Shown in pieces: positions 46,105 to 49,667 of a stretch of DNA of 57,739 nucleotides. The position numbers were made by a program, and so were the translations under genes. The notes beneath the pieces were generated by a model. The model did no database searches. It was not told the DNA's origin and saw nothing but the letters and a program-made list of their open reading frames with translations. This DNA is from Candidatus Acidiferrales bacterium (GTDB taxonomy: Bacteria; Acidobacteriota; Terriglobia; Acidiferrales; UBA7541): NCBI GenBank assembly GCA_031296075.1, contig JARLGK010000107.1:1-57739 (forward strand). The letters are read 5' to 3'. Position 1 is the first letter of the stretch; each line of letters begins with the position of its first letter.

Positions 46105-48681
46105 ATGGCTCCGGACATCAACAAGCATCTCGAGCGGGCGCGGCGCAGCCTCGAAAAGAACAAGCTCCGCGAGGCGGTTGCCGCATACCAGGCTGCCCTG
46201 GAAGAGGTGCCCTCGCATCAGGAAGCACTGCAGGCTCTTGCGGACATCCATACCCGGCTCAACGAACCCGAACTGGCCGCCCAGTATTACGGGGCCCAGT
46301 TCGACCGCCTGCTCGAAGTGGGCGACGCCGCAAAGGCTTCCGCGATCTTCGGCCGTTTTCTCCGGCCTTATTCGCAGCCTCCCGATCGACTGATGCGCTA
46401 CGGCGGCCTGCTGCAGAAGCAGAATCACGCATCGGAGGCCATCGAGCAGTTCGCCGCCGCCGCCGAGCTTTTCCTGCAACATCAGCGCGGTATCGAGGCG
46501 CTCGCGTGCTATGAAAGTATGGCGCTGCTCGATCCGGAAAATCCATCGCGGCACGTGGTTCTCGGCGAACTCGCGGAACGGCTGCGGCACGCCGATCTTG
46601 CCGCGCGCAGTTTTCTCCGCGCGGGGCAACTAACCCAGGCCGGCGGCGGTGTGGATGAAGCGCTCGAATATTTTGGCCGGGCGCACCGGCTGCTTCCCGG
46701 TGACCGCACCGGAGCGTTGCTGTTCGCGGAAGCCAAGCTTCGCAAGGGCGATTCCGAAGGCGCGGTCGCGCTTCTCGAACCCTTTGCGCCCAATGAGAAG
46801 GACACGGCGTTCCTCGCGCTATTTGGCGAAAGCCTGCTGCGCGCGGGGCGTCTGGACCGCGCCCGCGAAGTATTCGAGGCCTACTACAAACAAAAGCCTG
46901 ACCGCTTCGAAAAACTCTTTGAGTTGACAAGCGCCTATATCCGCGCGGGCCAGGACCCCAAGGGCGCCCTGCTGCTCGCGCAGACCAAGGAATGGATGCG
47001 CGCAGGCCGGAAAGACAGCGAACTTTCCGCGCAAATGGATCGCCTCTCAGCCGCTCATCCCGACTCGCTGCCGCTCGCCGAAACGATCGCCCATTCTTTC
47101 GAGGAGATGAACCGCGAGTCGAAATACTTTGACGCGCTGCTGCGCCTATTCGACCTCTATTACGGCGCGTCGCGATTGAAGGAAGCCTGCGAAACGCTCG
47201 ATCGGCTCGTGGATATCGACCCCTACGACTATCGCAACCAGGAGCGCATCGCCAAGCTCGAAGGAAAAGTAGACCCGGCATTCCTGCAGAACGTGTTATC
47301 GCGCGCGGCTAAGGCTGCAACCGTTTCCACTCGCACGGACGGTTTCACCGGCGCCGGCTCCGAGGCAGGAGCAACCGCGGGACCCGTCTCCGAGGAAGCT
47401 CGCGCGCAGCAGGCGCTAGAAGACCTGGTCGTGCAGGTGGAGATTTTTCTCCAGTATTCGCTCCAGACCAAAGCCGTCGAGCGTTTGGAGCGCATCGCCG
47501 AACTCTTTCCGGGCGAAGAAGATAAGAATGAGCGCTTGCGCGCTTTGTACGAGCGTGCCAATTGGTGGCCGAAGGGCGCGCCTCGCAAGGCAGTTCCCCC
47601 GGCGCCATCGAGTCCGCGGCCTGCGCCCGCCGAGGTTGCTCCCGCTCCTCCGTCTGTCGCCGCGCCGGTGCCCGCGGAGACGCATCGCGATCTTGCGGCG
47701 ATCGCCGAAATCAACCGGCTGATGTACCGGCAGTCCACGCCGCGCGAACTGCTCGCGACGACAGCAGCCGAAATCGGCAAATATCTTCAGGTGACGCGCT
47801 GCCTGATTGCGGTGGGAGCGGCAGGCGAAGCGCCGCAACTGACCGCGGAGTACTACGCCGCGGGGACGGTTGCGGCCGGCACGGCGTGCATTCCCTCCAT
47901 CATCTCGCTGGTCACCAAAGCCACGCCCGACGCTTTGGGCGGGATCGAGCTTCATGCATCGAGCGCGCCTGCGTTGCGTGAATTGGGCCTCGATTCGGCT
48001 CTTGCCGTCGAGCTGACGGACAAGGAAACGCAGGCGCCGGCCGGCGCACTGCTCGTGGGGGACGGGGCCGCGCGAAAGTGGAAGCCGAACGAGAGCTTTT
48101 TCCTGCAAGCCGTCGGCGACCAGTTGGTGATGTCGGTGACTCACACGCGATTGCGCTCGCTCGTTCGCTCGCTCGCCGTCGCTGATGAAAAGACCGGCCT
48201 GCTGAGCCGCGGCGCCTACATCGATTGTTTGCTGGTCGAGTCCAACCGCTCGCGCACGCAGGGAACGCCGCTTTCGCTTATCATCGTGCACATTGACCGC
48301 GGCGGCGATCTCCTGCGGCAACATGGCGACGCGGCCGTCGAGCAATACGTCGAGCAATTGGCGCGCGCGCTTTCCTCTGCCGTTCGTCAGACCGATATCG
48401 CCGTGAAGCATACGGCATGGTCGCTCGTCTTCGTCTTGCCCAACACGTCGCTTGAAAACGCCCGCGCGCTTGCGGAAAAGCTTCGCCAGGTCGCCGGCAC
48501 GGTCCAGCCTCCCTGGGGCGAACAGGATCTTACGGCCAGCGCCATCGTGGCGGAGGCTTCCTCGCGCCCAGGCGATGAAACCGAAGACCGCGTCACCGAA
48601 TGGATCAATCGCGCCGAAGCAGGACTTGATGAGGCGCGCCAGCGCGGTGGTAACATCCTCGTGCCGCTCGCAACTCCCTAA
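46105..48681 (+). CDS. TPR-GAF-degenerate GGDEF protein
   Basis: 858 residues, no signal or membrane segment. About residues 1-480 are TPR-like helical repeats (LREAVAAYQAALEEVPSHQEAL; AGRLDRAREVFEAYYKQKP). A Pro/Ala-rich linker (about 495-530) leads to a GAF-like domain (AEINRLMYRQSTPRELLATTAAEIG to GDQLVMSVTHTRLRSLV). The last about 165 residues align by pattern to a GGDEF domain: DEKTGLLSRGAYIDCLLVE at the start and FVLPNTSLENARALAEKLR after the active site. The catalytic GGDEF is replaced by TAWSL (770-774), while RQTD (761-764) sits at the I-site RxxD position. Likely not a cyclase; possibly a c-di-GMP sensor. Runs into ribH with 18 bp between. Confidence 0.85.
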   Translation: MAPDINKHLERARRSLEKNKLREAVAAYQAALEEVPSHQEALQALADIHTRLNEPELAAQYYGAQFDRLLEVGDAAKASAIFGRFLRPYSQPPDRLMRYGGLLQKQNHASEAIEQFAAAAELFLQHQRGIEALACYESMALLDPENPSRHVVLGELAERLRHADLAARSFLRAGQLTQAGGGVDEALEYFGRAHRLLPGDRTGALLFAEAKLRKGDSEGAVALLEPFAPNEKDTAFLALFGESLLRAGRLDRAREVFEAYYKQKPDRFEKLFELTSAYIRAGQDPKGALLLAQTKEWMRAGRKDSELSAQMDRLSAAHPDSLPLAETIAHSFEEMNRESKYFDALLRLFDLYYGASRLKEACETLDRLVDIDPYDYRNQERIAKLEGKVDPAFLQNVLSRAAKAATVSTRTDGFTGAGSEAGATAGPVSEEARAQQALEDLVVQVEIFLQYSLQTKAVERLERIAELFPGEEDKNERLRALYERANWWPKGAPRKAVPPAPSSPRPAPAEVAPAPPSVAAPVPAETHRDLAAIAEINRLMYRQSTPRELLATTAAEIGKYLQVTRCLIAVGAAGEAPQLTAEYYAAGTVAAGTACIPSIISLVTKATPDALGGIELHASSAPALRELGLDSALAVELTDKETQAPAGALLVGDGAARKWKPNESFFLQAVGDQLVMSVTHTRLRSLVRSLAVADEKTGLLSRGAYIDCLLVESNRSRTQGTPLSLIIVHIDRGGDLLRQHGDAAVEQYVEQLARALSSAVRQTDIAVKHTAWSLVFVLPNTSLENARALAEKLRQVAGTVQPPWGEQDLTASAIVAEASSRPGDETEDRVTEWINRAEAGLDEARQRGGNILVPLATP

Positions 48682-48699
48682 ACTGATGGGTGCTGATTG

Positions 48700-49254
48700 A
48701 TGGCAGGACATGGAAAACCGAACGTGCGCCTCGGCGGGAACGATGGGCTCACTGCAGAGGGACTGCACTTCGGAATCGTCGTAAGTGAGTTCAATAGCTT
48801 CATCACGGACCGGCTGCTCGCCGGTGCGCTGGACGCGCTCGCGAGCGCCGGAGCGCGCAAAGATCAAGTGGAAGTCGTCCAAGTGCCGGGAGCGTTCGAA
48901 TTGCCCATCGCAGCCAAGAAAATGGCGGCGACGAAGCGCTTCGATTCGTTAATCTGCATCGGCTGCGTCCTGCGGGGCGAGACGTCGCATTACGATTACG
49001 TCTGTTCGGAGACAGCGCGCGGCATTCAGCTCGCGCAACTCGATACCGGCGTGCCCATCGGCTTCTGCGTGCTCACCTGCGACACGCGCGAACAGGCCCT
49101 TGCCCGCGCCGGCGAAAAGAGCGGCAACAAGGGTTACGAAGTGGCCGTCGGTGCAATCGAGATGGCCCGCTTCTCACGCAAGTATTCCGGCGACACCGCC
49201 GCCTCAAAACCTCGGGAACGCCGCCGCGAGCGTGGCCCCAAACGCCGCCGATGA
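48700..49254 (+). CDS. ribH: 6,7-dimethyl-8-ribityllumazine synthase with Arg-rich tail
   Basis: 184 residues from ATG 48700; the track uses the adjacent TTG. Core motifs: GIVVSEFNSFITDRLLAGA, VPGAFELPIAAKKM, CIGCVLRGETSHYDYV (catalytic His region) and TGVPIGFCVLTCDTREQALARAG. It makes the lumazine precursor of riboflavin. Usual length is about 155. Here an extra tail SKPRERRRERGPKRRR has 10 basic residues of 16. nusB starts within the stop (ATGA), a common ribH-nusB pairing. Confidence 0.96.
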   Translation: MAGHGKPNVRLGGNDGLTAEGLHFGIVVSEFNSFITDRLLAGALDALASAGARKDQVEVVQVPGAFELPIAAKKMAATKRFDSLICIGCVLRGETSHYDYVCSETARGIQLAQLDTGVPIGFCVLTCDTREQALARAGEKSGNKGYEVAVGAIEMARFSRKYSGDTAASKPRERRRERGPKRRR

Positions 49255-49667
49255 GCCTCCGGCACAAATCGCGCGAGTTCGCCCTGCAGATGCTTTTTGA
49301 ATGGGATATGACGCGGCAGGAGCCCGCGCGCGTCGAAAACCTTTTTTGGAAGTCGGCGCGAGCGTCGGCGTCAACGCAGAAATTCGCAGATGAACTTTTC
49401 GAGGGCGCGGTCGCCCAAGCGGGCGCGATTGACGAAATCGTCGGGAAACTCGCGGAAAACTGGCGGCTCGACCGCCTTGCAGCCGTTGATCGCAGCATCC
49501 TGCGCCTGGCGATCTACGAGCTGCGCGTCGGCGCCGTCCCTCCGAAGGTCGTGATCGATGAAGCCCTCGAGCTCGCGAAGAAATTCTCCTCCGCGGAGGC
49601 GCCCGCGTTCCTCAACGGAATTCTCGACGCCGCTTTTAAGAACCTCGAAGCAAAGGCTTCCGGCTAA
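49251..49667 (+). CDS. nusB: Transcription antitermination factor NusB
   Basis: 138 residues, all helical. RHKSREFALQMLFEWDMT start, then LDRLAAVDRSILRLAIYELRVG and PPKVVIDEALELAKKFSSAEAPAFLNGILD, the standard NusB blocks. With NusE it binds boxA RNA for rRNA antitermination. The 3' end overlaps the convergent phosphomutase gene by 4 bp. Confidence 0.96.
   Translation: MSLRHKSREFALQMLFEWDMTRQEPARVENLFWKSARASASTQKFADELFEGAVAQAGAIDEIVGKLAENWRLDRLAAVDRSILRLAIYELRVGAVPPKVVIDEALELAKKFSSAEAPAFLNGILDAAFKNLEAKASG

Follow-up and report, generated by a model that had tools for sequence, protein, structure and literature searches.

Organization of the locus and domain layout of the protein

The window analyzed here is a stretch of 57,739 nucleotides of a Candidatus Acidiferrales bacterium (contig JARLGK010000107.1). 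At positions 46105-48681, it carries a plus-strand gene for a protein of 858 amino acids, which combines an SgmX-like TPR array with a GAF domain and a putatively inactive GGDEF domain. The ATG start codon is located at 46105 and the stop codon ends at 48681, as read from the ORF and its translation; full-length homologues of the protein were found (loci L083-L162). All features described below lie on the same strand.

The TPR array (residues 3-484; 46111-47556) consists of about 11 TPRs (residues 3-407), a disordered loop, and one extra helical pair. It was delimited from repeated matches to Pfam TPR families, collinearity with the NF052243 model, hhalign alignments with register controls, and the AF2 model. 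The array is followed by a disordered Ala/Pro-rich linker (residues 485-522; 47557-47670), in which pLDDT falls below 50 over residues 493-507 and 509-522. In the case of the GAF domain (residues 523-653; 47671-48063), the Pfam score of the window protein was just below the cut-off (PF01590, 20.0 versus 22.4 bits), and the family profile clearly matched GAF structures (6oap, E 1e-9). A predicted signalling helix (residues 661-690; 48085-48174) lies between GAF and the GGDEF domain (residues 691-855; 48175-48669). The latter was recognized by Pfam over residues 692-850 (PF00990, 53.3 bits, E 3.6e-14); among the twelve GGDEF domains found in the genome, it is by far the lowest scorer (57 bits in that comparison versus 125-180 bits).

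An AF2 model of residues 525-858 was built on an alignment of 46 homologues and reached a mean pLDDT of 86. The GAF region was predicted to adopt a GAF-like fold. Foldseek matched the model to GAF-GGDEF and phytochrome-GGDEF cyclases, to PleD with c-di-GMP, and to c-di-GMP-bound GGDEF domains, of which 3ign gave a TM-score of 0.84 (by target length) and an rmsd of 2.6. In the predicted GGDEF fold, the RxxD tetrapeptide discussed below is located in the loop preceding the hairpin that formerly carried the catalytic motif at its turn. The full-length model showed about 11 TPRs (3-407), a helical pair at approximately 430-467, a disordered linker at approximately 485-522, and GAF (523-653), signalling helix (661-690), and GGDEF (691-855) in the C-terminal half. 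The full-length model showed no membrane segment.

The ribH and nusB genes (48697-49667) start 15 bases past the stop codon of the receptor gene, and the three genes likely form one operon here. Most of the 80 named loci have ribH and nusB downstream of the receptor gene; in distant relatives, genes for thiolase, 3-hydroxyacyl-CoA dehydrogenase, and enoyl-CoA hydratase intervene. The neighbours (ribH, nusB, hflX, and lipid and phosphate genes) do not point to pili or c-di-GMP, and a scan for promoters and terminators revealed nothing above chance. The gene context, made up of housekeeping genes, was rejected as a clue to function.

The catalytic motif and the I-site of the GGDEF domain

Residue equivalences were determined by a gapless HMMER alignment of residues 689-791 to PleD, using the numbering of 2wb4. 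The earlier note had reported RQTD at residues 761-764 and TAWSL at 770-774, separated by five residues, and this was borne out by the ORF and the alignment. The RQTD tetrapeptide (48385-48396) corresponds to the primary I-site RxxD (R359/D362 of PleD), and TAWSL (48412-48426) replaces GG(D/E)EF, which is GGEEF 368-372 in PleD. The five residues between them are IAVKH, and the spacing is the same as in PleD. R715 (48247-48249) is the equivalent of PleD R313, the second half of the I-site, and K792 (48478-48480) that of R390. The remaining equivalents are H729 for D327, L737 for N335, and E746 for D344.

The I-site was then examined in an alignment of 122 distinct family members with 37 canonical-type GGDEF domains of the same phylum, in which columns were counted over 120 rows. 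GG(D/E)EF was present in none of the approximately 120 family members. Of the positions that are strongly conserved in the canonical domains, those binding metal and guanine were lost, with the metal ligand D327 kept in 2%, N335 in 1%, and H340 in 0% of the homologues; of the catalytic motif, G368 and G369 were kept in 3% each, and E371 and F372 in 0%. The I-site residues were kept in 98% (R359, 118/120), 100% (D362, 120/120), and 97% (R313). At the position of PleD R390, we observed Lys in 118 of 120 rows and Arg in the other two, which is a conservative and near-invariant exchange but also the single weak point in the case for c-di-GMP binding. When the 163 columns of the domain were ranked by conservation, D764 was 2nd, R761 6th, K792 7th, and R715 15th, and the examined catalytic columns took only the 48th to 123rd places. 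The pairwise identity of the homologues has a median of 46% and a minimum of 21%, so the retention of the I-site is not due to recent ancestry. RxxD was present in 118 of 120 members, and the two exceptional rows (L071 and L167) represent a single gene that was retrieved twice. It is an additional copy in genome G075 and the only member that lacks the I-site Arg, having PETD instead; another copy of the receptor in that genome retains RQND.

RxxD was also found in 36 of the 37 canonical-type GGDEF domains compared. The motif is therefore inherited, and taken alone it is weak evidence for a receptor; we rejected it as proof of c-di-GMP binding. The strong evidence is that the entire I-site is retained after the loss of every catalytic residue. 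In terms of column conservation, purifying selection on R715, R761, D764, and K792 was shown. Judged by its residues, the domain is almost certainly inactive as a cyclase.

The last long helix of the domain contains a family-specific motif, EDxVTExINRAE (residues 827-838; 48583-48618). Its D828, T831, I834, N835, R836, and E838 are invariant or nearly so in the homologues. N835 and R836 are unconserved in canonical GGDEF domains, and the motif is possibly a new contact surface.

The earlier note had proposed that the protein is a c-di-GMP effector of the inactive-GGDEF type. Two of the refuting observations it had named were looked for, a lack of RxxD conservation among homologues and a predicted fold at odds with the I-site, and neither was made. 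Since the catalytic residues are lost, the I-site is kept, and the predicted fold is close to that of c-di-GMP-bound cyclases, an assignment to c-di-GMP receptors of the PelD/CdgA kind appears well supported by the alignments and the model. By analogy with these proteins, the C-terminal domain probably binds c-di-GMP at its I-site. If binding is confirmed, the window protein belongs with the degenerate-GGDEF I-site effectors (PelD/CdgA/PopA kind). PleD shares the GGDEF fold and aligns without gaps over the I-site and motif region, but it has receiver domains and cyclase activity, and its I-site serves feedback inhibition.

In domain make-up, PelD of Pseudomonas aeruginosa and Bacillus cereus is the nearest known protein. 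It consists of GAF followed by a degenerate GGDEF domain, which binds c-di-GMP at an intact I-site composed of RxxD and a third Arg; in the B. cereus protein, substitution of the corresponding residues R363, D366, and R395 by Ala abolishes binding (PMC7112168). PelD is membrane-anchored and encoded in the pel operon, whereas the window protein has neither pel context nor a membrane segment in the model; it has an array of about 480 residues of TPRs before GAF; and the third I-site Arg (R402 of PelD, R390 of PleD) is replaced by Lys. The earlier note could not match the architecture to any characterized receptor. This no longer applies to the combination of GAF with an inactive GGDEF domain and I-site, which occurs in PelD (PMC7112168), and it stands for the fusion to an SgmX-like TPR array. 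This fusion is what is new here. No description of a TPR-GAF-inactive GGDEF architecture was found in our literature search, in which subscription papers were thinly covered, nor did this search turn up any c-di-GMP receptor reported for Acidobacteriota.

CdgA (Bd3125) of Bdellovibrio bacteriovorus has a degenerate motif, GVNEF, with RxxD five residues upstream of it. It binds c-di-GMP with a Kd of about 2 uM and is devoid of cyclase activity (PMC3271064). CdgA is polar and contacts the TPR protein Bd2492 (SgmX1) in a two-hybrid assay (PMC3983030); a later study doubted the contact between RomR and SgmX1, but not that between CdgA and Bd2492 (PMC11025332). In Bdellovibrio, the receptor and the TPR protein are separate, whereas the window protein is one polypeptide with GAF between the two parts. 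By this analogy, it looks like a fused version of the CdgA and Bd2492 pair.

The TPR array and the SgmX-like paralogue

The best non-orthologous relatives of the window protein in these genomes align over its residues 1-490. In the same genome, we found an SgmX-like protein of 970 amino acids (G000:C217:7543-10452, locus L163, also L225), which scored 183 bits against NF052243, the NCBIfam model of the SgmX family. The score of the window protein was 29.5 bits and those of the tested homologues 48-90 bits; the curated full-length cut-off of 1800 bits was not reached. NF052243 is collinear with the TPR array of the homologues from model position 2 and was the top NCBIfam match for three of the six homologues tested; the top single NCBIfam TPR match of the window protein itself was PrsT, not SgmX.

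A profile-profile alignment (hhalign) of the window TPR part with SgmX-like proteins extended over 480 columns, end to end, from the first residue. Since TPR arrays align promiscuously, register controls were run. The halves scored 301 and 175 in register but 106 and 88 when the register was shifted, and general TPR promiscuity was rejected on this basis as the cause of the match. The C-terminal TPRs of SgmX-like proteins aligned poorly with the window array (hhalign score 36). Because the in-register scores exceed those of the shifted controls, the alignments show that the window TPR part and the SgmX-like protein are paralogues along the whole array and differ in their C termini.

SgmX of Myxococcus xanthus (MXAN_5766) is a type IV pilus activator with 14 TPRs, of which the three C-terminal ones (12-14) bind MglA-GTP. 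They act as a regulatory lid, masking the polar-binding site until MglA-GTP is bound (PMC7668184, PMC11580455). It follows that 11 TPRs precede the regulatory unit of SgmX, compared with about 11 in the window protein, the two arrays being aligned from their first residues. The MglA-binding TPRs are absent from the window protein, and GAF-GGDEF stands at their position; this and the NF052243 score, far below the cut-off, set the window protein apart from SgmX. In this genome, the two paralogous genes are on different contigs, and the trmD-rimM-ffh neighbourhood of the SgmX-like gene is uninformative on function. In some distant families, a single contig carries both genes at a distance of only about 18-40 kb (G067:C31, G073:C1, G081:C17, G088:C3).

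In named records, close relatives come from soil and peat MAGs of Acidobacteria, Terriglobia, and Candidatus Acidiferrales. Most genomes of the family of the window carry an orthologue, as do several further families within the class; some genera of Acidobacteriaceae have the gene as well. When 247 genomes were sampled evenly across the phylum, it was confined to the same class, and the best matches outside the class were canonical GAF-GGDEF cyclases, whose motif is GGEEF or GGDEF. Two public MAG records titled Betaproteobacteria and Bacillota (L128 and L147) carry the gene with the Acidobacteriota gene order, and their titles are probably mislabels.

Co-occurrence was scored by hand from searches of 101 relatives and counted in the 66 genomes that are at least 90% complete. 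The SgmX-like gene was present in 40/40 receptor-positive versus 3/26 receptor-negative genomes, and PilM in 40/40 versus 15/26. The corresponding Fisher values (7.5e-15 for the SgmX-like gene, 7.2e-6 for PilM) overstate the co-occurrence, since the genomes share descent and the counts are not independent. PilT is a less clean pilus marker than PilM because of cross-hits with PilB/GspE. In one genus inside the family of the window (g12), both the receptor and the SgmX-like gene were lost.

MglB (PF03259) was detected in only 8 of the 101 relatives and was not found in the family of the window or in the Acidiferrales searched. No clear MglA was found in this genome, where the Arf matches were weak and partial (at most 26 bits). 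The Myxococcus circuit is therefore not present as such, and a direct link to MglA/MglB was dropped from consideration. The SgmX-like proteins of Terriglobia seem to work without this pair.

A putative c-di-GMP receptor on an SgmX-like scaffold

We consider it reasonably probable that the window protein functions as a c-di-GMP receptor rather than as an enzyme and is built on an SgmX-like scaffold that may regulate type IVa pili. The I-site of the dead GGDEF domain would bind c-di-GMP, probably as an intercalated dimer between two domains, as suggested by PleD and PelD. GAF and the signalling helix would connect this domain to the N-terminal scaffold of about 11 TPRs, the part paralogous to the SgmX-like protein. 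GAF-GGDEF sits where SgmX has its regulatory TPRs, and from this we infer that c-di-GMP may take over the role of MglA-GTP on the scaffold. Its binding would switch the C-terminal module to another state and thereby free or block a TPR surface, which would then regulate the type IVa pilus machine, perhaps jointly with the SgmX-like paralogue. The parts of this proposal are not equally probable. An output on type IVa pili is plausible, at somewhat less than even chances. We put forward more tentatively that the protein is an SgmX-type pilus activator, in which the MglA-controlled C-terminal TPRs were swapped for a c-di-GMP-binding GAF-GGDEF, and which acts beside an SgmX-like paralogue without MglA/MglB. 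That GAF-GGDEF would work as a lid in place of the C-terminal TPRs, by analogy with SgmX, is a little more doubtful still.

The receptor could instead have an output other than type IV pili, such as polysaccharide export, the cell envelope, secretion, or a polar hub. TPRs bind many partners, the pilus genes are not adjacent to the receptor gene, many receptor-less genomes have type IV pilus genes (as the PilM count above exemplifies), and PelD, its closest counterpart in domain make-up, is a regulator of polysaccharide export. However, the array resembles SgmX-like proteins specifically, and the distribution of the receptor gene follows that of the SgmX-like paralogue very closely, which leaves such an output rather unlikely, though a serious contender. 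Somewhat less probable, and compatible with pilus control by the receptor, is that it works by pairing with the SgmX-like paralogue, in analogy to RcbB and RcbA at the Vibrio pole. RcbB of Vibrio vulnificus also has N-terminal TPRs, a C-terminal GGDEF domain, and a paralogous TPR partner, and this precedent (PMC12282931), the two paralogous arrays, and their tight co-occurrence speak for pairing. On the other hand, the two genes are on different contigs in this genome, and RcbB, with its 7 TPRs, is an active cyclase inhibited by its own TPR part, which the window protein is not.

The dead GGDEF domain might also be only a protein-interaction or dimerization module, in which RxxD and its neighbours are kept for the fold or for contacts. 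GGDEF domains can be used for docking, as in PdeB with the landmark HubP (PMC9061725); the non-ligand positions G698, D828, T831, and N835 are as invariant as the I-site, and R390 is replaced by Lys. We regard this as improbable, given that the four kept positions, spread along the sequence, are exactly the c-di-GMP ligands of PleD, while structural positions of the canonical domain, e.g., K696, T718, and A816, are freely changed in the family. That the domain still binds GTP, as a sensor or a weak cyclase, was rejected as very improbable because all substrate residues are lost: some GGDEF domains with an altered motif stay active, such as VCA0965 with AGDEF (PMC3974145), but here essentially all members lack D327, N335, and H340 together with the two Gly and the two acidic residues of the motif.

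We thus favour a c-di-GMP receptor that may act on pili. Control by MglA and SgmX in Myxococcus was reported to be independent of c-di-GMP (PMC7519303). If our reading is true, the protein would join in one polypeptide two logics of pilus control that have been treated separately, namely c-di-GMP, which controls pili via FimX in Pseudomonas, and MglA/SgmX. It would also be a fused counterpart of the CdgA-TPR contact of Bdellovibrio. Acidobacteriota are a very abundant phylum in soil, and to our knowledge, there are few known receptors of c-di-GMP beyond Proteobacteria and Actinobacteria; the protein described here would provide Acidobacteriota with a class-wide receptor of c-di-GMP.
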